IMG/VR virus record: IMGVR_UViG_3300042383_000552
Coordinates: 1-31,384 of that record
Length of the DNA stretch: 31,384 nucleotides
Direction: 5' to 3' (one strand)
Source: a virus
In this document: in pieces, positions 4,960 to 25,069 of the stretch
How the letters are laid out: each line of letters starts with the position of its first letter
Numbering within the stretch: position 1 is the first letter of the stretch
Position numbers and translations under genes: made by a program
The notes under the pieces: generated by a model
Told to the model about the DNA's origin: nothing
Database searches by the model: none
Seen by the model: only the letters and a program-made list of their open reading frames with translations

Positions 4960-5129
4960 TGCCAGGTAAGAAGAAGATGCCAGCTTTCCTAATGGAAATG
5001 TATGGCAAGAAGTCAAAGGGCAAGGGCAAGGGCAAGGTTTCAGGCAAGGGCAAGAAGCTCCCTAAGGGTGGAAAGACCCTTCGTGGAACTAACAAGTCCG
5101 GACAAAGGACTGCCGCTCAACGTGGCTAA
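4959..5129 (+). CDS. 56-residue lysine/glycine-rich small protein
   Basis: An ATG overlapping the upstream stop (TAATG at 4957-4961), with GAGGAGGAAAG ahead of it, opens a 56-residue frame ending at TAA 5127-5129. The product begins MPGKKKMPAFLMEMYGKK. It contains an alternating KGKGKGK run, then KLPKGGKTLRGTNKSG, and about a third of its residues are lysine. The next gene starts at GTG 5122 inside its last codons. The good Shine-Dalgarno and the tight coupling on both sides argue for a real gene. Function is unknown; the composition resembles small DNA-condensing or virion-associated basic peptides, which is only an analogy. Confidence 0.65.
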   Translation: MPGKKKMPAFLMEMYGKKSKGKGKGKVSGKGKKLPKGGKTLRGTNKSGQRTAAQRG

Positions 5130-5427
5130 GACAGCCGCCTGGACCCGCAAGGAGGGCAAGAACCCTGCTGGCGGTCTAAATGCTAAGGGGCGTGCCAGCT
5201 ATAAAGGCGGCACGCTCAAAGCCCCTGTTAAGTCAGGGGATAATCCGCGTCGGGCTTCGTTCCTGGCTCGCATGGGTAACATGCCAGGGCCGGAGCGGGA
5301 CTCAAAGGGACGGCCCACGCGGTTGCTACTCTCGCTCCAGGCTTGGGGCGCTAGCAGCAAAGCAGATGCTAAAGCCAAGGCTAAGGCTATCAGCTCAAGG
5401 AATAAGGGAAAAAAGCGTGCCAGCTAA
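5122..5427 (+). CDS. DUF6321-like small basic phage protein
   Basis: A frame starting at GTG 5122 gives 101 residues beginning MAKTAAWTRKEGKNPAGGLN. That motif, with the later LKAPVKSG..PRRASFLARMG and PTRLLLSLQAWGAS, matches a conserved phage family that I recall as DUF6321, found just upstream of terminase genes in several marine and freshwater phages. The frame is open further upstream to an ATG-like start at 5002. That extension is low-complexity Arg/Ala sequence that reads through the preceding gene, so I chose the GTG, where the conserved domain begins. The C-terminus is lysine-rich (SSRNKGKKRAS). Function is unknown. Confidence 0.75.
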   Translation: MAKTAAWTRKEGKNPAGGLNAKGRASYKGGTLKAPVKSGDNPRRASFLARMGNMPGPERDSKGRPTRLLLSLQAWGASSKADAKAKAKAISSRNKGKKRAS

Positions 5428-5545: not shown

Positions 5546-5700
5546 TGCCAGCAAAGCAAGGACTCTACGCCAACATCAACGCAAAGAAGAAACGCATTGC
5601 TGCCGGTTCTGGCGAGAAGATGCGCAAGCCTGGAAGCAAGGGAGCCCCATCTGCTAGGGACTTTAAGGAATCAGCGAAAACAGCAAAGAAGAAGAAATGA
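5545..5700 (+). CDS. 51-residue GLYANINAKKKR-type small basic protein
   Basis: ATG at 5545 overlaps the previous stop, and the frame ends with TGA at 5698-5700, which overlaps the terminase ATG (ATGA). The product starts MPAKQGLYANINAKKKRIAA and ends in AKTAKKKK. The GLYANINAKKKR start is a recurring signature of tiny proteins encoded next to packaging genes in many tailed phages; I recognise the motif but know of no assigned function. It is the last of five small basic genes ahead of the terminase. Overlap at both ends and the conserved motif make it more secure than its size suggests. Confidence 0.7.
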   Translation: MPAKQGLYANINAKKKRIAAGSGEKMRKPGSKGAPSARDFKESAKTAKKKK

Positions 5701-7193
5701 ATCTTACTACTGAGATTGCTCAAGATCTAGCCAGAGGCAGAACCGACATCGGTTTCTTCGCCTCTCGTTGGCTTGGGATCAATCTCAACCCTGGTCAGCT
5801 TGCTTGGCTCCAGGGGATGTCAGCCAGGGATGAGACGGGGTACAGGCCCAAGTACCTTACCACCGTCTGCTCCGCTGGCAACCGTGCGGGTAAGACGCTT
5901 GGAATGGCTGTAGGCATCCTGCACTCAGCCACATACAAGCTAGGGCTTCGCCCCTCGGAGTTGAACAATCAGGCCGACGCGGAGCGTTGGACTACGGAGC
6001 CCTATGAGTGGTACCACATCGGCATCCAGCAGGAGACTGCTGAGTTGGTGCATCGTGAGCTTTCTATGATTTTTCAAAGCTCGCACCCAGCCCAACGCGG
6101 TAGGGGATGTCCGATTATTAAGGAGATAGGTCCAGTATACATCTTTGACAAGAAGTACCGTGGAGAGTACCTGTGGATCAAGATCCATCCTGTATTCGGT
6201 GGAGCTAACATCCACTTCCGCACAACCCAGGACAAGGCTAAGGCACTGCTTGGAAAGGACATGAACGGTATCTCATTTGACGAAGCCGCGTTTGAGCCTC
6301 ACCTTCTGATGATCTATCAGGAGGTTCTCAACCTGCGCCGTCTATCCACCGGTGGCCAACTGCACTTCATCGGCACACCTACAGAAGGTATCAACGACTA
6401 CGCTGACCTGTGGGAGCTTGGCAATCCTAAGAACCCAAACAAGGACGAGCAGTTCATGAGCTTCCGCCTGTCTACCAGGGACAACGTGGGCTTCGGGCTC
6501 AACGGGTCAACCTTTGACTCCATCGTCCGGCAGCAGGCCGAGTACCTAGTACCACAGAACATCGACGGGTTCTTCATTGAATCACGAGACGCATACTTCA
6601 ACTCAGAGATGGTCGACAAGTGCTTTGTCGAGTTTGAGGAAGAGATGGCACCAGCCAAGGGCCGTCGCTACGCACAGGGTGTTGACCCTGGCATCTCGTC
6701 GGACGCCACATGGGCTGTCACGCTAGACTACACAGAGCGGAATATGATGGTAGGAGTAAGGTGCCGACGGAAGATCGGCAAGCAGACCATCCCCGCAGTC
6801 ATCAACATGGTGCGTGAAGGGCACCTTCTCTACACGCAGGATGGAGCTGCATGCACCACTATTGTGGACTCCACCGGGTTTGGCGGGAAGCTGTTCCGAC
6901 AAGAGTTCAGCATCATCAAGCCCCTGCGCGACTACGACTTCGGTGGCACTCGCGCTAAGAAGCTCGAGCTGCTCGGAGACCTAAAGGCGGTCATCGACCG
7001 TGGTCAGCTCAAGCTTCCACGAAGCGGAGTTTGGATGGAGCTACGCCGGCAGCTGCTTGGCTACAAGCTCAACGACAAGAACCTTTCAACGGACGCCGTG
7101 ATGGCACTTGCCCTCTCGGTCAGGCACGCTACTCGCAATCCTTCCAACCCTGTTGAGAAGCCTGTGTTTAGCTACTTTGGGGAGTATGCATAA
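5697..7193 (+). CDS. terL: Terminase large subunit (DNA packaging ATPase/nuclease)
   Basis: A 498-residue protein, normal length for TerL. The ATPase domain has a Walker A variant CSAGNRAGKT (residues 58-67) and a Walker B ISFDEAAFE (Asp195, Glu196). A coupling motif HFIGTPTEG follows near residue 225. The C-terminal RNase H-like nuclease domain shows GVDPGISSDATW (Asp330, Asp336), TTIVDSTGFGG (Asp391) and LSTDAVMALA (Asp466), which supply the metal-binding acidic residues. It cuts concatemeric DNA and pumps it through the portal encoded by the next gene. The ATG overlaps the upstream TGA, and the stop TAA overlaps the portal ATG. Confidence 0.96.
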   Translation: MNLTTEIAQDLARGRTDIGFFASRWLGINLNPGQLAWLQGMSARDETGYRPKYLTTVCSAGNRAGKTLGMAVGILHSATYKLGLRPSELNNQADAERWTTEPYEWYHIGIQQETAELVHRELSMIFQSSHPAQRGRGCPIIKEIGPVYIFDKKYRGEYLWIKIHPVFGGANIHFRTTQDKAKALLGKDMNGISFDEAAFEPHLLMIYQEVLNLRRLSTGGQLHFIGTPTEGINDYADLWELGNPKNPNKDEQFMSFRLSTRDNVGFGLNGSTFDSIVRQQAEYLVPQNIDGFFIESRDAYFNSEMVDKCFVEFEEEMAPAKGRRYAQGVDPGISSDATWAVTLDYTERNMMVGVRCRRKIGKQTIPAVINMVREGHLLYTQDGAACTTIVDSTGFGGKLFRQEFSIIKPLRDYDFGGTRAKKLELLGDLKAVIDRGQLKLPRSGVWMELRRQLLGYKLNDKNLSTDAVMALALSVRHATRNPSNPVEKPVFSYFGEYA

Positions 7194-9604
7194 TGGCAAA
7201 AGGTAAAGGCATAAGGAAGCTACCAGGTTCTTTCGTAGATGGAAAGCCACAGCCGTCTCTGTATACCACAGATGACACTTTGGCAACTCCTGAGCAGCTT
7301 CGCAATATCAAGAAGCACAACACAGAAGCTAAAGCTTCGGTAAGGGGGTCAAAGCCCAAGATCAATGTCCCTGGTGGATTTGTAAAAACTGAAATCCAGG
7401 AAGGTAATACGGATTCTCCAGAGTATTCAATTGGAGCTATTAAGGCTGCGGTCGGTAGGGCTCGAAAAGAAATTCGCGGAGAAAAAGTAGATATTGAGGT
7501 TAAGGGCGGATCTCTAAAAACTGTTCTTGAGCCAGCCAAGGTAAAGGTAAGGAAGTCAGAACCTCTTAGAAGCGCAGTTGCAAATCGAAATGCAACCAAG
7601 GCTGGCAAGGGGAAGACGATCCCAGGCATGATTGTTTCGGGCGGAAAGATTGCCAGCAAAAAGATTGTTGCCGACTACTCCAAGATGTCGAACCTCACTG
7701 ATGCCCAGAAGAAGGCACTCAGCATGGAGAAGCAGCGCCTCAATGCCATTGGCGAGGTAGCCGAGGAGAACGAGTACTTCGGGATTATCGGTGATGCCAT
7801 TGTAAAGAAGCAGATGGTTGAGCCTGAGCAGAACCGGATGCGTGCACTCTACCGACGATACGACCACTACTTCCACCCACAGACTTTCACTCTTGGCGGA
7901 GCAGACCACTGGGCAGAAGACCCAAGCGCACGTCTTTCAGGGCGGTCGCACGTTTCTGTAAACGTCCATGCCTCTTACGTGCAGATCCCAGCATCTCTTC
8001 AAGCAGTAACGCCTATTGTAAACTACACTCCAACTGGACCTACAGAAGAGGAAAGAAACCAGGCAAGCAGAAGGGAGAGACTCTTCTACGCGTGGTGGGA
8101 TAACAACGAGTTTGACCTGCGTCTCGAGGAGGCGTCTCTGCTTAAGGCTCTTTATGGAACAACTGCAGCAAAGGTATACTGGGACCCAACCAGGAAGATG
8201 CCACGGGTACAGATTGTAGATACCCCAGAAAATCTTTACCTGGGATACGGAACGTCTGACTATAGCAGGATTGACTGGGCTCTATACAGCTACGGAGTTT
8301 CACCTCAAACTGCAATCGAGGACTACGGCATCAACGTTATTCCTGTAAATGACGGGAACAAGTGGTACCCATATACCTCGGCTAGCACGCACGATGACCC
8401 AATTGCTAGCATCTATCTGAACAGCTACCACAGAGATCCTATCCGGTATCAGACTGCATATGACCAGATGAAGATTGAGGTCATGGACTACTGGTACAAG
8501 CATCCGACTCAACCAGGAAAGCCACCGCTCGTCTGCAACGCTATCATCGTTGGGAACACTGTCGTCAAGAAGACCGAGCACCCAGAGATGGAAGGCGTCA
8601 TTCCTTACATTATGCTACGGAACAGCATGATCCCTGGAAGCCCATACGGAAAGCCAGAACTATACGACATTGAGCAACTGCTCCGAGAGAAGGACGAGAA
8701 GATAACCGCCCAGGCACAAATGATCCACTCTGTTGTCGGAGGACAGATGTGGCAGCTGGTGGGCGCGGAAGCTCCGGATGAGGTTCCTGCCAACGCTATC
8801 CCGAAGCCAAACCAGGTCGCTACCCCTGGGGCAGGTAACCGCATTGAATCCATCAACCCGTTCATCCCGCAGTTCCAGGTCGAGGACTACAACAAGCGTA
8901 TCGACCGCGAGCTTGCAGTGGTGTCTGGCCTTAACGACCTGCTCCTCGGTCTTGCTCCGTCGACCGTTCTCGGCTCGAGCCGTGCGATCGCTCAGCTCAT
9001 GGCTAACTACGAAGCACGAATCAGCCCGAAGAGAAAGATCCTTTACGCCTGGGTCCAATCTGTGTGGGAGGTTTGTGCAAGAATCTGGGAGAACAAGGAC
9101 AGGGCAGTGTCCAGTATCATCGACGGGGAATACACTATCTCGATTACGCCTCCAGAGCTTACGCCACGAGACACAATCGAGCTTGCCCAGACCGCCATCA
9201 ACCTGGTCCAGAACCGACTCTGGTCTGCCGAGCGTGCGATGGATCGCATGGGAGTTACTGACCCAGAGGGCGAGAAGGAGCTCATCCGCGAGGAGCAGAC
9301 GGACGCAACGCTCAACCCGGCAGCTGTACAGACAATGGGTGCTCTCATCCAGATGTTTTCCCAGATGCAGCAGCAGCCCCCGGCTCCTGCCCAGCAGATG
9401 GCACAGCAAGGACAGGCCAGCGCAATGGAGGCAATGGCAAGCCTGAACCCGCCACAGGGTGGCATGGAAATGTTGAACGCACCAACGGATGGCGGTATGC
9501 CGCCACAGGAGTCCCTGCCTATGAACGCGCAGGGTGGTGGAGCTGATCTAATGGCAATGCTGCAAGCAGCGCAAGGCGGGATACCGCAACAGGAAGGTGA
9601 ATAA
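7193..9604 (+). CDS. Portal protein with basic N-terminal extension
   Basis: An 803-residue protein immediately after TerL. The portal fold starts at about residue 200 (RMRALYRRYDHYF, then RRERLFYAWWDNNEFDLRL and LLKALYGTTAAKVYWD). It continues through the stem/wing region (YGKPELYDIEQLLREKDEKI, YEARISPKRKILYAWVQSVWE). The last about 90 residues are low-complexity Gln/Met/Pro/Ala/Gly. The first about 160 residues are basic and low in hydrophobics, unlike a standard portal N-terminus, and match the composition of the small basic proteins encoded just upstream. The protein forms the dodecameric DNA-entry vertex and binds TerL and the head-tail connector. The call rests on position and the conserved core; the extension is unexplained. 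Confidence 0.9.
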   Translation: MAKGKGIRKLPGSFVDGKPQPSLYTTDDTLATPEQLRNIKKHNTEAKASVRGSKPKINVPGGFVKTEIQEGNTDSPEYSIGAIKAAVGRARKEIRGEKVDIEVKGGSLKTVLEPAKVKVRKSEPLRSAVANRNATKAGKGKTIPGMIVSGGKIASKKIVADYSKMSNLTDAQKKALSMEKQRLNAIGEVAEENEYFGIIGDAIVKKQMVEPEQNRMRALYRRYDHYFHPQTFTLGGADHWAEDPSARLSGRSHVSVNVHASYVQIPASLQAVTPIVNYTPTGPTEEERNQASRRERLFYAWWDNNEFDLRLEEASLLKALYGTTAAKVYWDPTRKMPRVQIVDTPENLYLGYGTSDYSRIDWALYSYGVSPQTAIEDYGINVIPVNDGNKWYPYTSASTHDDPIASIYLNSYHRDPIRYQTAYDQMKIEVMDYWYKHPTQPGKPPLVCNAIIVGNTVVKKTEHPEMEGVIPYIMLRNSMIPGSPYGKPELYDIEQLLREKDEKITAQAQMIHSVVGGQMWQLVGAEAPDEVPANAIPKPNQVATPGAGNRIESINPFIPQFQVEDYNKRIDRELAVVSGLNDLLLGLAPSTVLGSSRAIAQLMANYEARISPKRKILYAWVQSVWEVCARIWENKDRAVSSIIDGEYTISITPPELTPRDTIELAQTAINLVQNRLWSAERAMDRMGVTDPEGEKELIREEQTDATLNPAAVQTMGALIQMFSQMQQQPPAPAQQMAQQGQASAMEAMASLNPPQGGMEMLNAPTDGGMPPQESLPMNAQGGGADLMAMLQAAQGGIPQQEGE

Positions 9605-9606
9605 AA

Positions 9607-12477
9607 ATGGCACGACGCGGTAGATTCGGTCGATCTGGAACAAGCCAGAACCTAACTATGCTTGTTTACCAACTACTCAAGCAGCAGATGCAAGACGAGA
9701 TTGAGGCAATCCTCCAGGCGTACGAGACCAACATGAAGGATGGAAAGTACACCAGCCAGTTCAACGGACAGAACGTTGACGGCCAGTTTGTCATTGATTA
9801 CTACAAGCAGATGCTTGCCGGCTTCCCGCCTGGAACCACGGAGTACGAGACCATCAACTCGAGGCTCGAGGAGTTCGAGCGGCAGTACCGAACGGACGTC
9901 CAGAACCTAATTATCAACGCAATGAACAACGGTACGCAGATTGACTTCGGTCTCCTTGGCAACGACTTCCAGAACAAGGGTATCTCTGAGGTCACCGTGT
10001 CCGACCTCGCCGGATGGGCAGACCAGGAGATCGCTGACCTCATTGCAAACGGAGAGACTGAGCAGGCAGACAAGCTAAGCGGCGCTGTGTTCGTAGCCAA
10101 GTTCAACGTAGCCAATGACGGCAAGGATGCAGCCTACAAGCGCGGAGAGATCACAGCTGCAGAGTACGCAAGCTGGCTCGGCAAGCAGGCACAGTCGTCG
10201 CTTGACGCCGGCATGACGGAGAGCAGCGAGGCCTACCGCCAGATCATGGGTCTTCAGGCTGGCATGCTCAAGATCGCCCGGACAGAAGGTCGTGTCGAGG
10301 CGTACAACAACTATACCAGCACAATGAACTCGCTAATGAATCGTCTTGACACTGCGGCAACTAAGCTGTTTGACAAGTACAAGTCTCTTGGCGGGATCTA
10401 CTCGTCAGTAATTGACGGGCTTATTGCTGCTAACGGCGGTGATGCATATAAGGCTATGCAGGCACTTGCCGATGCAAGGAAGAAAGGCGACCAAGAACTT
10501 GGCGCCGTTTACGGAGCTATCTTCAACGAGATGGGGACAGACCCAGAGGAGATGTCATTTGGCGACGCGGTAAACGAAGTGACTTCACGGTTTGTACAGA
10601 TGCAAGACAATGGATTTAGTGGGGTAAGCCCAGACGACGTAGGTAAGCTAAACGATACCGTTGACGCAATCATTGCAGGAAACAACGAGTTCGTTGCGAA
10701 CAGTGGCATCTCATTCAACAGCGGTGCCGGTCAGGCTGCGGTATCCAGCCTATACAAGGACCTTCGAGCAGCTGGTGCCTACGCAGTACAAGAGGGAGTT
10801 CAGCAAGATCTGGTCTCCGGACAACCAAGCCTGGTCCTAGACGCGTGGAAAAAGTTTGGGTCTATGGTTTCTGGTGTTGATACAACCGGTTACGAGTGGC
10901 TAGTTGGAATGTCACAGGGCAAGTTTTCTACTCAACTTATTGGGCCCGAGCAAAGGGCGTGGTTTACTCCAACTCAACTACAGGATGGGTACATTACTCA
11001 AGATGAGTTTGACGCCGCTGTAATGTCAAGGCCATTCAATGAGAATGAAGTTACTGGATGGGTAGATGCCATTGCTGTAAACGCGACTAAACTTCTACCG
11101 TTCCCTGGCGCTTCGGGTGCTGCTGACGTGTCAGCAAACAGCGCAATTAAAGGGTTCCTTGATGCCATGGTGCACGACTCTATCATTAGAAACGGCGGCA
11201 CAATGGTTGTTCAGCCAAGCGGCGTAATGTCCGTGACCACAAATCCAAGAAACGTTGACGGATACAATATGGCAAGAACAGTAATGCTACCAACTGGATC
11301 TGATGGAAAGATTAGGTTTGCAAAATCTATTCCTCTACAGATTATGGCTGATGCTCCACAAAGTAACCCAGAGCCTTATAACTTCCCGGTGAGCATTCAG
11401 GTATTTAATAGTGGTGGGAATGCCGGAGCAAACAACACGTTCATGGTAATCGAGGGAAGCCAAGGGCAATCCCATCAGGTTCCGTGGTACCAGGGCAAGA
11501 AGTGGCTTGAGGCCATTGGTATCGTTGTGGACGACACATCGTTCCACACGCCTGGTGAGTATGGTTCTTCTGTCTACATCCGTGCAGATGACCTTAAGTC
11601 AAGCAAGCCAGACCAGTGGACTGAAGCGTTCAAAAACTTTGACAACCCAGCAAGCGACTGGTTCTGGGGTAAATCAACTGCAGGAAATGGTCTTGGTATC
11701 ATTAATGTAAACGAGAACACTGTATCATCTACATACAACTACGGTCTAATTGGAAAGCAAGAGTACCTTGACAGCGTCATCACTGGCATTCTGTCGAACG
11801 GCAGGGACTCGATCCTGGCCGCAGCTACAGATCTTGCCAAGAAGGAAGGTAGGGAAGTTGACAGGGACCACATCAACCGTGCTGCGTTTGAAATGATCCC
11901 ATTCCTTCCAAAGTCAAACAACACCAACTTGTTTGATATTCCGCTGCTTATGAAGAATCCGAAGATCACTTCGGCATTCAACACGTGGTTCCCTGCGATC
12001 AAGGCCGGTAGTGGTCTAGCAACGATGCAGCCAGGGGCTATCCCTAATCAATCGCTGTTCCCGAACTACAACCCAGCCTCTACATATAATCCACCCGGAA
12101 CTGGCAACCCGCTAACATCCGGGAATCCGAACTGGAAGTGGAAGCCAGAGACCCAGGTACCAGCTCAGCCACAGGGAGGCGGTCAGGGTTTCAACCCAAT
12201 GAATGTCATTGGTGGCTTGGTGTCTGGTGTGTCTAGCTTCATCGGAGAGGCGTTTAAGAACAAGCCGGCAATGGTGCAGAAGCTTCCTAAGGTCACTGCG
12301 AAGCCTGCAACGACAGCGTCTACTCCTACTGTGAAGGTGTCTAGCTACGCAACTGGATACACAAAGCCAGCAACGCAGACGACACCAACCTACGGGATTA
12401 GGCCTACAACGACAAAGCCTACTAACGTAGTCAAGGCAGACGTTCCTAATCCAAGGTACACAAGGGGCATCTTCTAG
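9607..12477 (+). CDS. Large uncharacterised protein between portal and scaffold (956 aa), probable virion protein
   Basis: A 956-residue protein with an RBS (GGAAGGTG) ahead of ATG 9607. The first about 330 residues are mostly helical, with repeated acidic/Gln-rich heptad-like stretches, after a basic start (MARRGRFGRSG). The middle is mixed and Asn/Ser-rich. The C-terminal about 130 residues are Pro/Thr/Gly/Asn-rich and disordered, with one hydrophobic glycine-containing segment (NVIGGLVSGVSSFIGEAF). I recognise no enzyme motif. Its place between portal and scaffold, and its translational coupling to the next giant gene (TAGTG), suggest a virion component, perhaps an internal or ejected protein. 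A tape measure is conceivable but would be in an unusual place. Confidence 0.85.
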   Translation: MARRGRFGRSGTSQNLTMLVYQLLKQQMQDEIEAILQAYETNMKDGKYTSQFNGQNVDGQFVIDYYKQMLAGFPPGTTEYETINSRLEEFERQYRTDVQNLIINAMNNGTQIDFGLLGNDFQNKGISEVTVSDLAGWADQEIADLIANGETEQADKLSGAVFVAKFNVANDGKDAAYKRGEITAAEYASWLGKQAQSSLDAGMTESSEAYRQIMGLQAGMLKIARTEGRVEAYNNYTSTMNSLMNRLDTAATKLFDKYKSLGGIYSSVIDGLIAANGGDAYKAMQALADARKKGDQELGAVYGAIFNEMGTDPEEMSFGDAVNEVTSRFVQMQDNGFSGVSPDDVGKLNDTVDAIIAGNNEFVANSGISFNSGAGQAAVSSLYKDLRAAGAYAVQEGVQQDLVSGQPSLVLDAWKKFGSMVSGVDTTGYEWLVGMSQGKFSTQLIGPEQRAWFTPTQLQDGYITQDEFDAAVMSRPFNENEVTGWVDAIAVNATKLLPFPGASGAADVSANSAIKGFLDAMVHDSIIRNGGTMVVQPSGVMSVTTNPRNVDGYNMARTVMLPTGSDGKIRFAKSIPLQIMADAPQSNPEPYNFPVSIQVFNSGGNAGANNTFMVIEGSQGQSHQVPWYQGKKWLEAIGIVVDDTSFHTPGEYGSSVYIRADDLKSSKPDQWTEAFKNFDNPASDWFWGKSTAGNGLGIINVNENTVSSTYNYGLIGKQEYLDSVITGILSNGRDSILAAATDLAKKEGREVDRDHINRAAFEMIPFLPKSNNTNLFDIPLLMKNPKITSAFNTWFPAIKAGSGLATMQPGAIPNQSLFPNYNPASTYNPPGTGNPLTSGNPNWKWKPETQVPAQPQGGGQGFNPMNVIGGLVSGVSSFIGEAFKNKPAMVQKLPKVTAKPATTASTPTVKVSSYATGYTKPATQTTPTYGIRPTTTKPTNVVKADVPNPRYTRGIF

Positions 12478-15400
12478 TGCCAGTATATTACTCGGGTAAT
12501 AACGAGCTACAGCTCCCAACGCTCCCGAACGAGCCAAAGGGACTTACCGTAGACATCGGCGGTGATACTCGTCTAAGCACGCTTCAGCCGCACGAGGAGC
12601 TTGCCAAGAAGTTCGGCGTTGCCATCGAAGATACCGTGAAGACCGGTATCGGGATCGGCAGCTCCATCCCTGGCGTCAAGGAAGTTACTAAGGCTGTGGC
12701 GGATTCTCCGATTGGAGACGCCGCCGGGTCCTTCTTCGACATCCTGAACATCCCAAGCGAGATCGTCCAGGGCATTGCTGCCAGGATGCGCATGGGAGCT
12801 GACGACCTTCCGATGGACATCAAGAACATGATCGCCATGGGGAAGAGCGATGACGAGATCGTGAAGTACATGATCGACACACAGCGCTCGTTCTCAAACG
12901 ATCGGTCCGCGAACCTGCTCTTCTCGATCCTGCTTGATCCACTCAACTTCACTCCGCTTGCACTTGGCAAGGTGCGATATCTCAAGACGCTCACAGGACT
13001 TACAGGAGGTGTAGCCGGTGGCGCCCTGGGCGGTACCCTCCTTGCCGGACCGGTTGGTACACTGGGCGGAGCGTTGGTCGGGTCGACTCTTGCTGCTCGC
13101 AAGTTCACCTCCAAGATGGACAAGATCCGCGATGCCGCAACTGCTGCCGAGAAGGCTGACGACATGCCGAAATTGAGCGCACTTGAAAGCGCGCTCAACA
13201 AACTTGATCGACCAGTTGGATATGACGCGATGCAGAAGCTGCGGACTGGTAGCTCAATGACTGCAGCTATAGACAAGGCAAACGAGGTTATCTCTGAAGT
13301 CAGCAAGTCGGATGCCGATGAGGCAATCAAGGCCGACAGAATCCGGGTGCAGAAGGCTGAGATTTCAAATTCCGAAGAGGCGATGAAGAGCATGGGCGCA
13401 ATCTCTAATCCGATTGCGCTTGGTATCTACAACGGTATCGTTGGCGGCAAGAACACTATCCTATCCCCTATCCAAAAAAGGATTAGCCTTGCAGTGTTCG
13501 GATCGGCAGAGCAGGGGATGTTCCGCGAGGCTGGTGGCGCAGTTGTCAACGAAACTGCAGACATCATCTCTGACGGAATGCTTTCACAGCATAAGACGCA
13601 GCTACAGGAGCAGCTTGGGCGTGGCATGGCTGCTCTCGGGATCGGCGGTATCCAGAGGGCAATGTTCACCATGGAGAACACCCTTGGTCTAAAGATTGCA
13701 AACCGAAGAGCAGAGGCTTACTTTGCTGCCCTGAACAAGGTCAGCGCTGACGAGGCTGCCGGAGTTGTATTTACAAACAAGAACGAGGCAATCGCTGACG
13801 AGATGATTCGCATGGCTACAGAGGCGTCAGGAAATGCCAACGAATACTTCAGGACCACAAGCAGGGCGGAAGTCCTTTCCACCATCGATAGGTTGCAGAC
13901 CACCGCTCTTCCGGACGCACTACGTGCTGGGCCAAAGACTACTCAGGCAATCCAGGACATCGGGGCAGAGATTAGCAACCAGCTTATTGAGTCTCGCGTA
14001 CAGACGTCAAGGATTGGCGGTGGCAGCCTGGAAGAGGTTGTGCTCGACCAGATCCGCAAGGTAGGCGCTGATGGATTTGCAGCAGAGGGCGGCTCTGAGT
14101 TGCGTCGCGCAATCCAAGAGATCATCCCTCGTGTATCCAGCAAGGCAGCTGCCAAGTCCGAGTTTACTGCAAACATGAAGAGCATCTTCGCAAGGTACGG
14201 TGTTGACCCGAACGCTCCGGCTACAATGTCCGCTATTGACGACAAGTTCGAGAGGATCTTCGGCAAGCTGTTCGACGAGGGCGGCCAGCTTGCCAAGAAC
14301 GAGAGCGCTACCGAGGTAGCACGTCGTTTGCTTGTCACCGAGCTGAGCTCATACTCTACTGCCAACTCAGCAGCGGCCGAGTTCAACAGGACAATGGCAG
14401 GACTACTCGATACGAATAGCAACGCTTTTAAGAAACTTGCAGAAGAGATTGGCCCAGAGAACGCATCTAAGCTTGCGGGTACTCTTGAGGTCATCTCCAA
14501 GAACATCGGCAAGATCCACGTTGCACGTCAGGGTTTTATGTTCCGAGGCAAGGTTGTCGCCCTGATCAACGTTTGGGACGAGATTGCTGCAGCATCAGAC
14601 ACTGCGGTTGGCAAGATTGACAGGACTGACGTTCGCGTGTCTGGTCTTGTTCCAGAGGTAAACGAGACCGTTGGTACGATTGGAGACGTTCAGAAGATCC
14701 GAACGCTGATCGTAGACAAGATCACAAAGGCGCGACGGTCCACAGAAGAGATGAGCACAGAGTATATTGACATGCTAAAGAAGCTCAACACCAAGCTAGG
14801 AAAGGCAAAGAACCTTGCAGACGTCAGAAGGATCTGGCAGGAGACTGCGTACAACTCGCTGGATGACGTTCGTGCCTCCATGGGCAACCTCAATAAGCCG
14901 TCAGATCTGCATCAGTTCTTGAAGCAAGCCCTCGATGAGGGGCTTGTTATTGATCCTCTGACTAAGGCTGAGCAAGGCATTGTTGAGGCAGCAATGAACC
15001 TAATGAAGATTAACCCTGAGGTAATGTCAGTATTCACTAAGGGCGGGGCGTATCGACTGGCAAGGCAGCCTCAAGGGAACCTGATGTCCAGAGCAGAGGT
15101 AATCCGACACTCAGACCCTACTCAGATGCGAAACATCATGATGCGAAGACGAATCGCTCCATACATTGACATGACCAGCCACCACTTCGACGACGTCGCA
15201 ATGGAGGGCCGATACAACCTAAGCCGATTCCAGCACATCATGAATACCATCTTCTCCCCTATTGGCCAGGATGCCGTTGCCGCAAGCATCCGCCGCAGGA
15301 TGGCGTCGTACATGGCACGCGGTGGCGTTGGAGAAAACCAGATCGAAGCTATCCTTGACGAGCTCCTTGTCAAGGCAATCGAGCAGAAGATCTCCCCGCG

Positions 15401-17516
15401 AGGTCTTGATCACAAGGTAATATACGATGCATTCAAGCGCGGGTTCGAAGCAACGTCCGGGCCAGGATCGTTCGAGGCGTTCAAGAGGAACTGGAAACTC
15501 AACAGCATCAGCGACTCAGACTTTGAGCCGGTAAATGCCCTTATGCACTCGTTCCGTGGAGACACGAATGTGGTCGGCTTGACACAGGCTGCAACAGGCA
15601 CAGCTAAGGAGTGGAGTCCATGGATTGCCGGGTGGACGGACAAGTGGTATCCAAATCTAAAGTTCCGACTAAACCCTATTTACTTTGTACAAGAGTTCCT
15701 AGAAAGCCCGACTCTAAACTCTGCGCGTGGAGTTGACTCCACCGTTCTGTCTGGCATTACATCTGACGGTAAGGCATACTACATCAGCGCCGGCGAGGCG
15801 AAGGACCTAGCAGTCATCAGCCCTGAGGCGCACGCGGTCATTGACAACAACAACTTCCTAGCAGTCTTTAGGGAAGACATGCTCAAGCAGGCGCTTACTG
15901 GGCGATACGAAGATGTAGTCGCCGCAAGTGGATCACTCAAGAACTCACGCCTTGCTCGGGGATGGGACAATTTGTCACAGCGCAAGGAAGCGCAGCGCGA
16001 TGCCCTTACGCTCAACCTTACAGCGCAGCAGTTCTCCGATAGCCTGATGAAGAACAACCCGGAGTTCTGGTCTGCACTAGTATCGCACTATGGTCTGAAG
16101 GACCCGCGAGACGTGTTCGTCAACTTCGTTGAGTTCCGAAGAAGTCTGTCAAACCCAGAGCGAATTGCCACGCAGATCGACCTTGCTCGGCCTGCGGCGT
16201 TTGGATACTCTAAGGTCGTTGACCCAAAGATGCGAATCGTATCCGACGTAGAGAATCTTCTGTTCAGGAACATCCCGATCGGAGGAAGGCTTCCGGTTGA
16301 CGACGCAGACATTCTCGATGTTCTGTCTACGTATGAAGTAGCAGCAAAGAACGCGCACAAACTTCGCCCTGACGTGCTGGCTGACAACATTTCAATTGCA
16401 CAGACGCAGCTCCGAGATGGGGCGTACGACATGAGCTCAATTACCCCAGCGCTTGACGACCTCAAGCTGACCGCTGTGAAGATGAAGCAACACCGTATCA
16501 CTAACCCTAATGACGAGTATCCTGCAGAGCTGCTTGCCGAGTACGAGCAGAAAATTGGAAATGTCAAGTCTTCGTTCGGGGCGGCAAAGTTCCAGGCACG
16601 AATTGCAGAGCACCGCTTCGAGGCTACGCAGGAGCTCATGCGCCTAGCCGGGTTTGCAACTGTTGACGGTCAGCTTACACAGGAGACGGCCAACATTGCA
16701 CAGGCCCTGGCGATGGGCGCAGGGTACGGCGGCGACATTACTGGAATTAGTACTGTTGTCGACAAGACAGTGCGCGAGCTGATCAGCCGTGGCTTGTTTG
16801 TCGGATCAAAGGAGTTTACCAACGAGCTGGTCATGGAAGTGCGTCGCAAGTTTGGCAACGATGCCAAGACACTCAAGCTCCTAAGTGATGCCTCGTACCA
16901 GCTAGTTGCACGCCACGGGTCCGAAGAGATTGCGTACCGTGCGTTCCAGTATGTGTACAACAAGACGCTCGAGGAAGCGAACAGGGTCCACTACGTCAAC
17001 ACAAAGCGCAGCTTCTTCGAGAGGACGATCAACCACCCGGTACTTGGGTTCTACCCATACACTTACATGTTCAAGAAGATCCTGCCAGAGATGATGGCGT
17101 TTATGTTCAAGCGTCCGTTCGGCGTCACCGCTCCGTTCGCAGGGTACCAGGCATATTCGAAGATCAGGGAGTACGTTGAGTACGAGCTCGAGAATGATTA
17201 CGAGCTAAAGACGGCAATCGAGTCCAAGCCGGAGACAATGTTCATGCTAACGTCTCTGTTCCCAGGCGTGCCGTGGGACATCTCGGTCGTACCACCTTCC
17301 TGGCTGCGAGCAGTATCGCGCAGAATGTCTGGCCAGTCCGACAAGGACGTCGACCTCTTCAGCAACATCCTGCAAGAGGACATCCTGGACAGGACAACAA
17401 ACATCGGCGGCGTAGCAGCGCTCAGCCGAGGACTTAGCGTAGGTTCGGAGCTTATGAGCTCCAGTGAACAGCCTATACTTGAACAGGCTGAATATAAAAT
17501 CCCTAGGATTCCCTAG
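12477..17516 (+). CDS. Giant uncharacterised virion-type protein (1679 aa) with glycine-zipper segment
   Basis: GTG at 12477 (AAGGGG upstream) shares one base with the previous stop. The 1679-residue product is the largest in the window. Residues about 173-207 are a hydrophobic glycine zipper (GGVAGGALGGTLLAGPVGTL...), followed by long charged helical regions. A distinct region near residues 870-1060 is rich in Arg/Met (MRRRIAPYIDM). The C-terminal part contains an aromatic hydrophobic stretch (HPVLGFYPYTYMFKKILPEM). I see no polymerase, protease or lysozyme motif that I can defend. Length, a membrane-active-looking segment and location among head genes fit an ejection/internal virion protein, but the function is not established. 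Two inverted repeats lie at its 3' end. Confidence 0.88.
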   Translation: MPVYYSGNNELQLPTLPNEPKGLTVDIGGDTRLSTLQPHEELAKKFGVAIEDTVKTGIGIGSSIPGVKEVTKAVADSPIGDAAGSFFDILNIPSEIVQGIAARMRMGADDLPMDIKNMIAMGKSDDEIVKYMIDTQRSFSNDRSANLLFSILLDPLNFTPLALGKVRYLKTLTGLTGGVAGGALGGTLLAGPVGTLGGALVGSTLAARKFTSKMDKIRDAATAAEKADDMPKLSALESALNKLDRPVGYDAMQKLRTGSSMTAAIDKANEVISEVSKSDADEAIKADRIRVQKAEISNSEEAMKSMGAISNPIALGIYNGIVGGKNTILSPIQKRISLAVFGSAEQGMFREAGGAVVNETADIISDGMLSQHKTQLQEQLGRGMAALGIGGIQRAMFTMENTLGLKIANRRAEAYFAALNKVSADEAAGVVFTNKNEAIADEMIRMATEASGNANEYFRTTSRAEVLSTIDRLQTTALPDALRAGPKTTQAIQDIGAEISNQLIESRVQTSRIGGGSLEEVVLDQIRKVGADGFAAEGGSELRRAIQEIIPRVSSKAAAKSEFTANMKSIFARYGVDPNAPATMSAIDDKFERIFGKLFDEGGQLAKNESATEVARRLLVTELSSYSTANSAAAEFNRTMAGLLDTNSNAFKKLAEEIGPENASKLAGTLEVISKNIGKIHVARQGFMFRGKVVALINVWDEIAAASDTAVGKIDRTDVRVSGLVPEVNETVGTIGDVQKIRTLIVDKITKARRSTEEMSTEYIDMLKKLNTKLGKAKNLADVRRIWQETAYNSLDDVRASMGNLNKPSDLHQFLKQALDEGLVIDPLTKAEQGIVEAAMNLMKINPEVMSVFTKGGAYRLARQPQGNLMSRAEVIRHSDPTQMRNIMMRRRIAPYIDMTSHHFDDVAMEGRYNLSRFQHIMNTIFSPIGQDAVAASIRRRMASYMARGGVGENQIEAILDELLVKAIEQKISPRGLDHKVIYDAFKRGFEATSGPGSFEAFKRNWKLNSISDSDFEPVNALMHSFRGDTNVVGLTQAATGTAKEWSPWIAGWTDKWYPNLKFRLNPIYFVQEFLESPTLNSARGVDSTVLSGITSDGKAYYISAGEAKDLAVISPEAHAVIDNNNFLAVFREDMLKQALTGRYEDVVAASGSLKNSRLARGWDNLSQRKEAQRDALTLNLTAQQFSDSLMKNNPEFWSALVSHYGLKDPRDVFVNFVEFRRSLSNPERIATQIDLARPAAFGYSKVVDPKMRIVSDVENLLFRNIPIGGRLPVDDADILDVLSTYEVAAKNAHKLRPDVLADNISIAQTQLRDGAYDMSSITPALDDLKLTAVKMKQHRITNPNDEYPAELLAEYEQKIGNVKSSFGAAKFQARIAEHRFEATQELMRLAGFATVDGQLTQETANIAQALAMGAGYGGDITGISTVVDKTVRELISRGLFVGSKEFTNELVMEVRRKFGNDAKTLKLLSDASYQLVARHGSEEIAYRAFQYVYNKTLEEANRVHYVNTKRSFFERTINHPVLGFYPYTYMFKKILPEMMAFMFKRPFGVTAPFAGYQAYSKIREYVEYELENDYELKTAIESKPETMFMLTSLFPGVPWDISVVPPSWLRAVSRRMSGQSDKDVDLFSNILQEDILDRTTNIGGVAALSRGLSVGSELMSSSEQPILEQAEYKIPRIP

Positions 17517-17533: not shown

Positions 17534-18046
17534 GTGGAAGAAGTCGTGAATCAGCCCGTCCCAGAGTCGCAGGAAGCTGCCACTCAGGACGATAACGATA
17601 TCACCACTTGGAAGAAGCGTCTAGCTGGCAAAGACCAAGCTCTGACATCTACCAAGAAGCAGTTGGATGAGCTTAAGTCTGAATACGAAAAGGTGCAAAC
17701 CTGGAAGCTTCAGATGGAAGAGGCCAGCCTAACTGAGTTCGAACGCGCTCAACGAAAGATTGAGACGTTGGAAAAGGAACTGCGCGCAACCAAGGAGGCC
17801 GAGACGAAGGCTCGTCTGGCCAAGGAGTACCCGACGTATGTTCAATGGCAAGAGAAGGTCGCAGAGCTCACCGATGAGGATCGAGCCCGCGAGTTTGAGT
17901 CGCTGCTGAAGACTGGTGGTAAGCCTGCCGAGGAGTTCGTAGATCCTAATAAGCCTGCTAAGGCCACACCGGTCAAGGCAGGGAAAAGAAGCTCCGATGA
18001 GATTGTTAGGGACATTGCTGCCCTTGGCAATCCTTGGGGCGAATAA
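17534..18046 (+). CDS. Capsid assembly scaffolding protein
   Basis: GTG at 17534 sits behind a strong AGGAGGTAAC ribosome binding site. The 170-residue product is highly charged. The acidic N-terminus is followed by a long coiled coil (about residues 25-110, including KKQLDELKSEYEKVQ and RKIETLEKELRATKE). A flexible Pro/Lys linker then leads to a short C-terminal helix (SSDEIVRDIAALGNPWGE), where scaffolds typically contact the coat protein. Size, coiled coil and position directly ahead of the major capsid gene are the classic signs. It would direct procapsid assembly around the portal and then leave or be degraded. No protease domain is visible. Confidence 0.88.
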   Translation: MEEVVNQPVPESQEAATQDDNDITTWKKRLAGKDQALTSTKKQLDELKSEYEKVQTWKLQMEEASLTEFERAQRKIETLEKELRATKEAETKARLAKEYPTYVQWQEKVAELTDEDRAREFESLLKTGGKPAEEFVDPNKPAKATPVKAGKRSSDEIVRDIAALGNPWGE

Positions 18047-18062: not shown

Positions 18063-19073
18063 ATGGCTACGCAGACGCGTGCGCTGCTCGATACGAACAG
18101 CTCAAACGCTTATTCTGCGCTCATCACGGAGCTCGTGGCTTCGCAGGCTCAAGAGAACCTGCGCAACCGACTGGTTCACGCAATGCCGGGTAACTACACG
18201 GCAGGACGTTTCCAGAAGGGCAGCAACGAGATTCGCTATGCGCGCTACCCAGACCTCACGCCGCTTGGCGTGGCGGACACCCTTACCGAGGCTGGCGCCC
18301 CGGCTGAGTATGACCTCACGGTCACGACTGAGTCCTTCGTGCCCAAGCAGTACGGTAAGGTTCTCAAGATTTCAGACCTTGCGCAGCTCGACAGCCCGCA
18401 CGATCTGATCTCGATCGCGTCCGAGCGCCTTGCTCGCGCCGCCACGGAGTCGATGGACAACATCATTCGTGACGTCGTAGCCCAGGGCACGAACGTTATG
18501 TATGCTGGCAACGCGACGACTCGAGCCAACGTTGGTTTCGATTCGGACGACAACGTTGTCGGTATCACGATCAAGAAGGCAGTTGCGAAGCTCAAGGCTG
18601 CAAACGTTCCAACGTTTGCTGACGGCTTCTACCGTGCAATCATCCACCCAGCGGTCGAGTTCGACCTCTTGACGGATACCAGCGCGAACGGCTTCCTCGA
18701 GGCCACGAAGTACACCAAGTCGCTCGACCTCCTCAACGGAGAAATCGGCGCGTACGCTGGTGTTCGTTTCCTCGTATCGCCAAACGCAAAGAAGTTTGCT
18801 GGCGCTGGTAGCCAGGACAAGGACGTCTACTCGACGTTCCTGTTCGGGCCTGATGCCTACATCGTAGGCGACAGCCAGACGCTCCAGAGCTACTTCGTAG
18901 CTCCGGGCGGCGACCACAGCGATCCAATCGCGCAGGTTGCAACGCTTGGCTTCAAGATGCGCTTCGGCGCCATCCTCCGCGGTGAGGGCACAACTGGTGA
19001 GTTCGACGGTAGCAATACCTCGACCGGCCAGCCACGCTACCTCCGCATCGAGTCGACGGCTTCGACGATCTAA
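18063..19073 (+). CDS. Major capsid protein, N4-gp56 family (HK97 fold)
   Basis: A 336-residue protein with an AAGGAG site ahead of ATG 18063. The family pattern is clear: an N-terminal ENLRNRLVHAMPGNY helix, then TLTEAGAPAEYDLT, then FVPKQYGKVLKISDLAQLDSP, then a long helix ending in MDNIIRDVVAQGTNVMYAG. Later segments include FYRAIIHPAVEFDL and GVRFLVSP. This order is characteristic of the N4-gp56-type coat proteins, which adopt the HK97 fold. Its codon choice looks more biased toward C/G-ending codons than that of the tail genes, as expected for the most abundant protein. It follows the scaffold by 16 bases and is followed by a very stable hairpin. Confidence 0.93.
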   Translation: MATQTRALLDTNSSNAYSALITELVASQAQENLRNRLVHAMPGNYTAGRFQKGSNEIRYARYPDLTPLGVADTLTEAGAPAEYDLTVTTESFVPKQYGKVLKISDLAQLDSPHDLISIASERLARAATESMDNIIRDVVAQGTNVMYAGNATTRANVGFDSDDNVVGITIKKAVAKLKAANVPTFADGFYRAIIHPAVEFDLLTDTSANGFLEATKYTKSLDLLNGEIGAYAGVRFLVSPNAKKFAGAGSQDKDVYSTFLFGPDAYIVGDSQTLQSYFVAPGGDHSDPIAQVATLGFKMRFGAILRGEGTTGEFDGSNTSTGQPRYLRIESTASTI

Positions 19074-19772: not shown

Positions 19773-20615
19773 ATGGATCTATCTGCAGCAATTACAATCG
19801 AGAGGCCCGGACAGTCGGCACTGGATATCAATAGTATTCGTGACCCTCTCGCAGTCGGATCCTCTCCTCTATCAGGGTACAGCGTTGAGCAGGTAGACTT
19901 CTCAGGCGTTGCTATCACTGCGTTCATGGAGGACGTTCCACAGGCAGACGGAGTAGACGCTAGCGATCCGTACCTTGGCGGCAGATCTATCAACATGACG
20001 GTGTCAGTATACGGAAGCAGTTACGCTGACTTCTGGGACAAGATGAACGACTTGAACTACGCGCTGCAGGCGCAGCCCAAGTACGCTACAGGCTCTGCTC
20101 TTCCGTTCGATGGCATGAGGAAGCTATCGTTTACACAGCCAACGTCATCCGGAACTTACTCCCTGTACATGAATGTTAGGCCAGTAGCACTACCTAGATT
20201 TGTTACTGAAAAGGCCTCTGCTGCTGGAGTCACCTCCAAGGGGTATGCTGTTATTGTAAACGTTGTCCTTTTTGCTGAGGACCCATATAAGTACTTCGCT
20301 ACCAGCGCAACGTTTAGCCGCAGCGGAACAGGAACAATTAGCGTTGTGAATACAGGCAATACAGTTGCATGGCCTACAGTAACCTGGAACTTGACATCTT
20401 CTACGGCAACTTCGGCTACTCTTGGCTCTGACACTGTGTCCCATTCCGTGTTGGATACTTCTATTACGGACACATTTAAGACTGCAGTTTCTACTAGCCC
20501 CACCACATTGACAGGGTTTGAATTCTTCAGTATCCCCCCTGGGACATCATCTGTCAGCGTGGTTGGCCAGAGCGGCCAGACTATTAGCATTACTATAACC
20601 GAAGCACTTCTGTAA
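19773..20615 (+). CDS. Distal tail (Dit)-like protein
   Basis: A 280-residue protein. The segment YLGGRSINMTVSVYGSSYADFWDKMNDLNYALQ (about residues 69-102) follows the Dit/phage tail family pattern of a strand ending in GGR, an SVYGS turn and a helix ending in ALQ. The segment ending FAEDPYKYF (about residue 172) is the usual end of the Dit N-terminal beta-barrel. A Ser/Thr-rich beta-sandwich (residues 175-280), probably galectin-like, follows. Dit forms the hexameric hub between the tail tube and the tip complex. It is coupled to the next gene by TAATG. It follows the adaptor gene directly, with no tail-tube or tape-measure gene between, which is unusual. Confidence 0.72.
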   Translation: MDLSAAITIERPGQSALDINSIRDPLAVGSSPLSGYSVEQVDFSGVAITAFMEDVPQADGVDASDPYLGGRSINMTVSVYGSSYADFWDKMNDLNYALQAQPKYATGSALPFDGMRKLSFTQPTSSGTYSLYMNVRPVALPRFVTEKASAAGVTSKGYAVIVNVVLFAEDPYKYFATSATFSRSGTGTISVVNTGNTVAWPTVTWNLTSSTATSATLGSDTVSHSVLDTSITDTFKTAVSTSPTTLTGFEFFSIPPGTSSVSVVGQSGQTISITITEALL

Positions 20616-23125
20616 TGGCACGTAAAAACATCGTTGTAATCTATTCGATGAAGCCTTATAACGATGCTGCACCTTTCTCGAAAAACCAGGTGTTGGCAGT
20701 CATCCCTGACGCTAGAGACATCGGTGTCCAGATGTATGCCAACGACTCTGGATACGCATACTTCACTATTCCCGTCGATCACCCGGCAGCTCCACTTATC
20801 CAGCCACTGAAGCAGCACTACTCTGTGCAGCGCTGGGACGGAAGTGCGTACGTAGACATCCAGTCCGGTATCATTACCGACTATGACGCAGGGGTAAGCG
20901 AGATCGTCGTCAATGGGGTCGACTACATGACGGCGCTAAACAAATACTACACTCAGATCCATGGCCCTAAGATTGGGGACAAGGCTATCCCAAGCTCTGA
21001 CACTAGGTCTATCAGTGCAGGCGGAAACGGATCTACTCCAAAATCAGTTATCGCTCAGGCGGCTTCCAAAGATTTGGCTAAAAAAAGCGAGGGGTATTGG
21101 GTACCAGTTGTTGATTCTGTATATCCGAATGTAGGAAAGATAGAGATCTATGACGGAGTACCTGACAATGTACAGCCTGGAACTGCAGGAAATACATGGG
21201 GGAACAAAGACAAGTTAAAGGTTACGTACCAAGAAGACGTAAACGGAAAGAAAACCGGTGCTGTAATCATTGAGGGGTGCCAGTACATATGGCGTGACGT
21301 ATCATCAGCATACTTCCAAGATGGTGAAACAGGAAAGACTATTGAAGGCAACTTCTCCATTGGGACGAGCGCCTCAAACAAAGGATGGATTGGTCTAGTT
21401 TTGTACGCACAGCCTGGGGGTGCGCTGCTTGACTTCTCAACTGATCATTACTTTGCGCCAAGTGAAGTAGAGATTGGTGGCTACTATTCAGCACTTGGAG
21501 GAATTGACGCACCGATGCCATTTACTATTACTCTAAGGCCGTCTAACCACTACAACTCAGCAGACGAGGACCACACAGGGAGAGAGCGTGTATACTCAAT
21601 CCTAACAGAAGGGGTTAGCTATGAGTTTTACGCAATCCCATACTATATTGGAAACCTAAGCCCGGTTAGCGGTTCTGACTATAACCAGGGAATATGGGGC
21701 ACTGCAACATCCGGGCTAGACACTACCTTCACAGCAGGTCTACAGACGGACACCGTGCCAGGGGCTATATCTGCCTTGCTTGCAACACCTGCAGACCCAC
21801 AGTACGTGCTAGACAGAACAAACGACTACCCTGTTTCTTCTGAGGCTGTTGCGTCCACAAGTATGGCGTCTTCCGTAAAGACTGTTATCATGTCTAACCC
21901 ACTACCAGAGAACTATATTGTTGGGGATACGGTTACCGGAGCATCTAGTACCCTTGTCTCTGGAGCAAGCACTGACACAAGCGGTGCCATTACCAGTATC
22001 TCTAGCGACAGAAAAACTATTGTTACAGCTGCCGGCACTGCATCTTCCGGTTCTAGTACAGGCGGTACTCTAAATAAAACTAATACTGCTCTTGTTCCCC
22101 TTGTTAAATTTACAACCCTTAACCAACTAAATACTGCATCAAGTTCAGTAAAACATCCATATACAACAGCAGGTCAAGGACCAGTGGACTTTTTACGTGA
22201 CCTTGCTGACATCGAGATGGGATCTAGGATGGACGGTACGAAGGTGGTGTTTAACTACTATGGTGTACCGGGTGCTTCGGCAACTGGTGCTAGCCTGATT
22301 GTAAACCATGCTGTCTCGGCAAACCCACAGGACGTACTAGTATACCCAGGAAGCATCAAGGGTTTTAACGTCACGTCCAGGCTTAGCAGCAAGGTGAACT
22401 CAGTACGAGTCGTGCCTACAACCGACTTCCTTATCGGAGCTAGTACTGAGGCAGCCTCAGGGGCTAAGAGCCAAGGAGTCGTTAAGGTTTCTCAATATAA
22501 TGTTAGCGATCCATCCTTGCCAATTGTTCAATCTCAGTCAGGCTTCCTATCCTCGCAGTCTGCAGGCAACTTTGCGCAAGGTCTAGTAAATGACTTTGGA
22601 CAAGACGATGACGTTAGGTCTATCTCAGTTCAGCTTAGGACTGATCTATATGGACCCATTGGCGCAGCTGGTACCCCTAAGCTAGGGGAAACTGTTCGCG
22701 TTGTTATTCGACGAAAGTCGGCTGGGATTGGTGTTGACGAGGTGTCCGGCCTGTATAACGTTGGCGGTATGGAGTGGCACGCTCGCATCGATGGGCACGA
22801 GGACCTGATGCTAGACCTGGCTAAGCCAAGCAAGTTCAAGGGCCCAGCCGTTTCGTGGGGCGCAACCCCTGGTACACCAAAGCCGGACCAGACTAAGCCA
22901 ACTAGGAATCCGGCACCCCCACCACCCCCCGGTAATGAACCTGGCAAGAAAGATATTCCACCCGATCCAATGGCTCTCCCAAACCTAAACATTCAGCCAG
23001 GCAGGGGCGGAGCCTACATCCATGCACTCCACATGGCAAATAAGCCTGCTCCAAGACCAAGGCCGGGGACTACTCCTAAGGTAGGGCTCAAGCCTTGGGA
23101 CCCTAGGGCCCCTAGAGCACGATAA
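20615..23125 (+). CDS. Tail hub / Tal-like protein, ReqiPepy6 Gp37-like N-terminus
   Basis: An 836-residue protein directly after the Dit-like gene. The N-terminal about 125 residues (FTIPVDHPAAPLI, YSVQRWDGSAYVDIQSGIIT, EIVVNGVDYMTALN) follow the hub-domain pattern of siphophage tail proteins such as the ReqiPepy6 Gp37-like family. A Ser/Thr-rich middle contains a carbohydrate-binding-like insertion (about residues 150-390). A second hub-like part lies near residues 520-730 (FLRDLADIEMGSRMDG, GSIKGFNVTSRLSSKVNSVRV). The last about 90 residues are proline-rich (six prolines in a row near 22914-22931) and basic. It probably forms the trimeric tail tip and may contact the receptor. No lytic motif is recognised. 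Confidence 0.72.
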   Translation: MARKNIVVIYSMKPYNDAAPFSKNQVLAVIPDARDIGVQMYANDSGYAYFTIPVDHPAAPLIQPLKQHYSVQRWDGSAYVDIQSGIITDYDAGVSEIVVNGVDYMTALNKYYTQIHGPKIGDKAIPSSDTRSISAGGNGSTPKSVIAQAASKDLAKKSEGYWVPVVDSVYPNVGKIEIYDGVPDNVQPGTAGNTWGNKDKLKVTYQEDVNGKKTGAVIIEGCQYIWRDVSSAYFQDGETGKTIEGNFSIGTSASNKGWIGLVLYAQPGGALLDFSTDHYFAPSEVEIGGYYSALGGIDAPMPFTITLRPSNHYNSADEDHTGRERVYSILTEGVSYEFYAIPYYIGNLSPVSGSDYNQGIWGTATSGLDTTFTAGLQTDTVPGAISALLATPADPQYVLDRTNDYPVSSEAVASTSMASSVKTVIMSNPLPENYIVGDTVTGASSTLVSGASTDTSGAITSISSDRKTIVTAAGTASSGSSTGGTLNKTNTALVPLVKFTTLNQLNTASSSVKHPYTTAGQGPVDFLRDLADIEMGSRMDGTKVVFNYYGVPGASATGASLIVNHAVSANPQDVLVYPGSIKGFNVTSRLSSKVNSVRVVPTTDFLIGASTEAASGAKSQGVVKVSQYNVSDPSLPIVQSQSGFLSSQSAGNFAQGLVNDFGQDDDVRSISVQLRTDLYGPIGAAGTPKLGETVRVVIRRKSAGIGVDEVSGLYNVGGMEWHARIDGHEDLMLDLAKPSKFKGPAVSWGATPGTPKPDQTKPTRNPAPPPPPGNEPGKKDIPPDPMALPNLNIQPGRGGAYIHALHMANKPAPRPRPGTTPKVGLKPWDPRAPRAR

Positions 23126-25060: not shown

Positions 25061-25069
25061 GGAGGGCGT

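Follow-up and report, generated by a model that had tools for sequence, protein, structure and literature searches.

Two giant proteins encoded between the portal and scaffold-like genes of environmental phages form a hypervariable, jointly exchanged pair and may be ejection proteins

The window analysed here is a 31,384-nt stretch of viral DNA. On its plus strand, the genes for the terminase large subunit (TerL, 5697-7193; PHROG 2, E 6e-17) and the portal protein (7193-9604; PHROG 156, E 8e-7) are followed by two giant genes, g1 (9607-12477; ATG start, 956 aa) and g2 (12477-17516; GTG start, 1679 aa). Next come a gene for a charged 170-aa protein, called scaffold-like from its position only (17534-18046), and the gene for the major capsid protein (MCP, 18063-19073; PHROG 1357, E 4e-46). 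A first-pass annotation of this DNA had described two coupled giant reading frames taking up a quarter of the window between portal and scaffold. Apart from the scaffold label, this description stands: the coordinates of both frames are exact, the g2 start overlaps the g1 stop by 1 nt, and the two genes together cover 7.9 kb, which is 25% of the window and ~19% of the closed genomes of relatives (~42 kb).

Scans of IMG/VR with single-protein patterns of g1 or g2 found nothing, probably because both proteins are so variable, and for this reason the terminase was chosen as bait; it gathered 125 IMG/VR stretches. Profile scans of IMG/VR recovered 163 stretches with g2 and 91 with g1. All genomes compared are metagenomic contigs. 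Three of them (G001, G003 and G013) are 41.0-43.0 kb long and have ends identical over 123 bp; therefore, the window amounts to about three quarters of a genome. The relatives fall into three layers: a near one (terminases at least 78% identical between members), a far one (about 70%) and a third clade whose proteins are shorter, about 880 aa (g1) and 1490 aa (g2). The two genes are direct neighbours in each of the 68 distinct contigs that contain them both, and 55 of the 68 have the identical 1-nt overlap. Upstream of g1, the portal gene lies at a distance of -29 to +12 nt (60 contigs where it is visible); downstream of g2, the distance to the scaffold-like gene is -4 to +48 nt (40 contigs). 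None of the IMG/VR relatives carries portal and capsid genes without the giants. It is misleading to call the pair inserted, as had been done, because it is an old and universal component of this widespread group of uncultured phages. The two genes define two protein families without annotation that are frequent in environmental viral contigs. A profile search of genome contigs with g2 and TerL found no prophage and no host; the capsid protein of the window distantly resembles those of Streptomyces and Bacillus phages.

The first 180 residues of g1 (9607-10146) form a constant, helical N-terminal domain. Their mean identity among near relatives is 61-73%, compared with 24-27% for residues 241-360. 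AlphaFold modelling, which the first-pass annotation had proposed, yielded AF2 models of g1 and of g2 residues 481-1679, both largely helical and of middling confidence (pLDDT 70 and 67, respectively). In the g1 model, long helices follow the helical N-terminal domain up to residue ~390; a beta-rich part covers ~530-660, and further helices lead to a disordered, Pro-rich tail that starts at ~814. No hydrophobic segment is consistent among g1 homologues. The modelled part of g2 is almost entirely helix. Three islands stand out in g2, the remainder being mostly 13-45% identical: residues 121-180 (12837-13016; 52% identity in near and 43% in far relatives), residues 1021-1080 (15537-15716; 60% and 41%) and residues 1501-1560 (16977-17156; mean identity 70% and 57%). 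The last island, with the motif RSFFERTINHPxLGxYPYSYMFKKILPE and its invariant columns, is the best conserved part of g2 and corresponds to the aromatic C-terminal stretch noticed earlier. The first lies just ahead of a glycine zipper, which had been placed at residues ~173-207 and was found at about 178-202 (13008-13082). This putative membrane segment has a hydrophobicity borderline for a membrane span; in the alignment it falls at one common position in both nearer clades, and the third lacks it there.

Searches of Pfam, PHROGs, PDB sequences and GenBank phages gave no confident match for either window protein, nor did individual scans of 28 g1 and 20 g2 homologues yield a confident family match, in agreement with the first impression that the pair carries no recognisable motif. 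That impression had been made conditional on the absence of a confident tape-measure, RNA polymerase or transglycosylase match; these were sought and none was found, and no RNA polymerase family is among the Pfam and PHROGs matches of the homologues. The suggestion of an internal virion enzyme fared less well, as the 28 g1 and 20 g2 homologues contain no confident enzymatic domain. EF-hand-like matches occur in 6 of the 28 g1 members (best E 1.5e-4). No MuF family was found in Pfam with the g1 homologues at E 0.1 or with the window protein at E 1. Searches of GenBank phages by tblastn with g1, g2 and distant g2 homologues gave no matches or chance ones only, and comparison with PDB structures (Foldseek and VIA-align 2) gave only generic helical matches, none distinct from the others. 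Among predicted structures, two uncharacterised UniProt proteins of uncultured Caudovirales phage match over most of their length: A0A6J5RZ15 with g1 (E 2e-11) and A0A6J5RYQ7 with g2 (E 2e-12). Their identity to g1 and g2 in structural alignment is only 13-16%; judging from the models, they probably belong to the same two families.

The pair diverges far faster than its neighbours. In pairwise comparisons of 16 genomes of the near clade, median identity is 87% for the terminase, 80% for the portal, 74% for the scaffold-like protein and 89% for the MCP, compared with 33% for g1 and 32% for g2; in near relatives, terminases are 78-99%, capsids 81-98% and portals 73-98% identical. The identities of g1 and g2 covary strongly (Spearman/Mantel rho 0.83, p 0.001, 1000 permutations), whereas both vary almost without regard to the neighbouring genes, the rho values of g1 and g2, respectively, being 0.30 and 0.15 with the terminase, 0.32 and 0.22 with the portal and 0.00 and 0.00 with the MCP. 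Very different versions are found in close relatives. For example, G010 and G013 are 99% identical in terminase, 94% in portal and 92% in MCP, but 36% in g1 and 32% in g2; for G015 and L129 the values are 97% (terminase), 37% (g1) and 39% (g2). Conversely, one allele is common to G001, G011, G013 and L051 (86-97% identity), which come from independent samples, and a second recurs in G010 and G017.

The boundaries of the variable region are sharp at the DNA level. Between G010 and G013, identity is 96.0% over the terminase and 84.4% across the portal and on to about codon 177 of g1; past this point a single 144-nt patch aligns up to the end of g2, and identity is 88.8% thereafter. In four genome pairs the similarity ends at g1 codons 172-212, that is, around the end of the constant domain. 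Trees conflict as well: L150 groups with G015 on the terminase tree and with G002 and L187 on the g2 tree, and AU tests reject a g2 group on the terminase data (p 0.0012) and a terminase group on the g2 data (p 8e-5), although these p-values are indicative because the groups were picked after the identity matrix was seen and the g2 tree has long branches. Identity covariation, conflicting trees and sharp DNA boundaries together argue, at the level of sequence, that the pair is a linked, exchanged cassette comprising the remainder of g1 and all of g2 (10147-17516), with the constant N-terminal domain as its putative anchor. The plain reading is that the pair passes between related phages as one unit, with recombination in the flanking conserved regions as the probable route. 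What is new here is how the pair evolves, a pattern that is visible across many samples. The occurrence of very different versions in close relatives, exchanged as a pair, suggests that DNA entry is the scene of an arms race.

Downstream of the capsid gene, the order is a neck gene (19133), a Dit-like gene (19773), a Gp37-like gene (20615), a small holin-like gene and replication genes. The stretch from the neck to the Dit-like gene yielded no recognisable major tail protein, terminator or tape measure, and in the closed genomes, too, no tube gene was recognised there, although HMMs can miss distant tube proteins. This late gene order may point to a short tail. With a short tail, the DNA would have to cross the cell envelope by other means, and since neither tail tube nor tape measure was recognised, its delivery probably needs other proteins. 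In podoviruses this is the role of ejection proteins, which carry the DNA across the envelope, are typically helical and, in some members, contain membrane-spanning segments, for which the g2 zipper is a borderline candidate. Several features make g1 and g2 candidates for such a role. First, they sit in the late virion block as adjacent genes (portal-g1-g2-scaffold-MCP in 68 contigs). Second, their models are largely helical. Third, their fast divergence has a counterpart in gp15-like proteins, which are 34% identical over the same time span in which portals are 69% identical (PMC8954989).

The closest parallel is found in the P22-like phages, where the ejection proteins gp7, gp20 and gp16 are likewise encoded by adjacent late genes, show very low identity between relatives and are exchanged among phages (PMC10883804). 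P22-like gp16s are mutually 22-26% identical, and gp16 and gp20 of P22 must match: the Sf6 gp16 or gp20 singly fails, and both together work (PMC10883804). Moreover, escape mutations against SieA, an inner-membrane exclusion protein, are found in both gp16 and gp20 (PMC10883804). The P22 proteins are smaller than g1 and g2 (229, 471 and 609 aa for gp7, gp20 and gp16), and their genes come after the tail genes, the P22 portal gene being directly followed by scaffold. In T7, gp15 and gp16 (747 and 1318 aa) resemble g1 and g2 in size range, mostly helical structure and fast divergence (PMC8954989); no transglycosylase domain was detected in the pair, and its gene location differs from that of T7 gp14, gp15 and gp16. 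Phage N4 and other Schitoviridae (gp50-gp52) have several giant virion proteins per phage, and N4 gp51 surrounds the portal (PMC12633501). In contrast to N4, no RNA polymerase domain was found in g1 or g2, and the N4 cassette follows the genes for capsid and tail. Direct comparison of g1 and g2 with T7 gp14-16, P22 gp7/20/16 and N4 gp51/52 gave hhalign probabilities of 0-11%, a weak negative because the templates were single sequences.

The earlier statement that most phages go straight from portal to scaffold or protease needs one correction, as the slot can be occupied in other phages too. Streptomyces podoviruses of the Beephvirinae (e.g. FlowerPower), located via a capsid protein 29% identical to that of the window, encode a giant of 1635 aa, gp9, in the same portal/scaffold-like slot, followed by NlpC/P60 peptidase and SLT transglycosylase genes. 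By analogy, this suggests that delivery proteins occupy the slot in at least two phage groups. What the two have in common is the slot: g2 compared with a five-member gp9 profile gave no similarity (hhalign probability 0.2%). Moreover, gp9 is at least 58% identical among 29 phages and, unlike g1 and g2, is not hypervariable.

On balance, we favour the view that g1 and g2 act as partners, matched to each other, and are the internal virion (ejection, or 'pilot') proteins of a podovirus-type phage. The first-pass suggestion of an undescribed ejection apparatus is thereby the best-supported reading, given the lack of a recognised tube or tape measure, the helical models, the fast linked divergence and the Streptomyces precedent for the slot; the presence of the pair in the virion and its ejection are what we infer. 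The first ~180 residues of g1 are likely the docking part, and we infer that this constant domain links the pair, as an adaptor, to the portal side, which is conserved. In the proposed mechanism, g1 and g2 would be packed beside the portal, with the g1 domain docked. On adsorption they would exit via the portal before the DNA does and either refold to form a conduit across the cell envelope or line one, the glycine-zipper segment of g2 possibly entering the membrane. The remainder of g1 together with g2 would constitute a matched, host-facing delivery assembly. Because entry can be hit by exclusion, exerted by the host or a prophage, this part would diversify rapidly and be exchanged as one cassette, and mismatched halves would be unable to function with each other. 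The hosts of P22 and T7 are Gram-negative. If the hosts of the present phages were Gram-positive, the conduit idea would need adapting, because phi29-like phages lack ejection proteins (PMC8954989).

It is reasonably probable that the pair works like an ejection-protein pair; the searches assigned it to no known family. A more specific proposal, which we put forward tentatively and with less than even confidence, is that it represents an undescribed two-protein DNA-delivery machine in the portal-scaffold slot of a large set of uncultured phages, unrelated to the T7-, P22- and N4-type ejectosomes, with a constant portal-docking domain and co-evolved, swappable parts that evade exclusion by the host or resident phages. 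If true, nature would offer an allele series of about eight cassette classes in closely related backgrounds, and one could ask which ejection parts must match, which of them touch the portal and what drives their change. The P22 exclusion protein acts on ejection proteins; such pressure may extend to wild phages, and the pattern described here is seen in many samples.

It is also conceivable, though rather unlikely, that g1 and g2 are virion-borne effectors of the polyvalent type, which would enter along with the DNA and target defences or metabolism of the host instead of building a conduit. Polyvalent proteins are encoded near virion genes (PMC5512222), a third giant upstream shows SLOG-type matches in single members, and the protein whose predicted structure matches g2 best (E 2e-12) carries the name 'Large polyvalent protein associated domain-containing'. 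Because of this name, and because gp20 of Bacillus phage Page has the LPD38 domain, membership of g2 among LPD38 proteins was checked. These proteins (Page gp20 and those of pelagiphages) are similarly giant, occur in podovirus-type phages and have a conserved domain near the C-terminus; unlike g1 and g2, the Page gp20 gene lies downstream of the tail genes. LPD38 was not detected by HMM in six-frame translations of 13 records, a scan in which the control was equally silent, and the g2 C-terminus scored no higher than shuffled sequences against an alignment of 7 LPD38 members, compared with 99.9% for the positive control. LPD38 was thus detected in neither g1 nor g2, and the striking resemblance in layout between the g2 C-terminus and LPD38 is at the level of shuffles. 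The absence of a confident enzymatic domain from every homologue also argues against effectors, as does the nearly full-length alignment of homologues without domain swapping.

Structural proteins of the head interior or portal vertex (core/scaffold or neck) that remain with the particle are an improbable alternative. The slot between the portal and scaffold-like genes is where other phages encode minor head proteins of the MuF/gp7 type (PMC5512222), and a constant N-terminal domain beside a conserved portal would suit such a role. However, the lack of a MuF match argues against it, and an identity of 24-33% is unexpected in a purely structural partner of capsids that are 81-98% and portals that are 73-98% identical. 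We regard it as very improbable that these phages have a long tail with an overlooked tube gene and that g1 or g2 is its tape-measure-like protein. Length and helicity would fit, Dit-like and Gp37-like genes lie downstream, and 3 of 20 g2 members have weak matches to the tape-measure family PHROG 167 (best E 2e-4). But g1 and g2 lie ahead of the capsid genes instead of just ahead of Dit, nothing lies between neck and Dit, no tube gene being recognised there in the closed genomes, both giants are exchanged together in near-identical backgrounds, and none of the best fold matches is a tape measure. Finally, every genome is a metagenomic contig, but it is extremely improbable that the cassette exchange is an artefact of chimeric assembly, since the same alleles recur in independent samples, the reading frames and the 1-nt overlap are intact, and G001, G003 and G013 close on themselves.

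The third giant reading frame (g3) encodes 2,400-2,761 aa, takes up ~17% of the genome and is present in every near-complete relative (for example, L082:10165-17442, L103:7401-15686, L085:1105-8862 and L097:4216-11886); the three giants together account for about 36% of the genome. The window edge cuts it, and positions 2-1009 hold only its C-terminus, which has a glycine zipper of its own. Single members match cpYpsA/SLOG (E 6e-8) or DUF7831 (E 3e-15). The g2 N-terminus against the g3 C-terminus gave an hhalign probability of 19.7%, above 15 block-shuffled controls; because the aligned core is glycine-rich, the similarity is taken as a lead. The third giant does not move with the cassette in G010 and G013, where 6 kb of this gene and its neighbour are 94.7% identical in DNA while g1 and g2 differ. 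In closed relatives it is always adjoined by a 131-aa protein with an HExxH motif (HELLH; 1010-1405 in the window), which has a weak match to a phage metalloprotease PHROG and, from its sequence, is probably a small zincin.

Other genes of the window deserve brief mention. Ahead of the terminase, a small basic protein (5002-5427) with a strong match to PHROG 4689 (function unknown) has a core conserved at 77-94%, including in far relatives. The capsid reading frame of the far clade (G006, G007, G008, G012, G014, G019 and G020) measures ~440-449 aa, compared with 336 aa in the window, and the ~100 additional residues are possibly a decoration domain. The Gp37-like tail protein (20615-23125) is the next most variable late gene, with 35-81% identity in near relatives, and does not strictly track the g1/g2 allele. 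A 129-aa, apparently secreted protein (28407-28796) with weak similarity to papain-inhibitor/expansin double-psi barrels is unusual company among replication genes and may hint at an actinobacterial host. The early gene block also encodes a Cas4/RecB-type nuclease (25055-25744; TIGR00372, E 1e-8).
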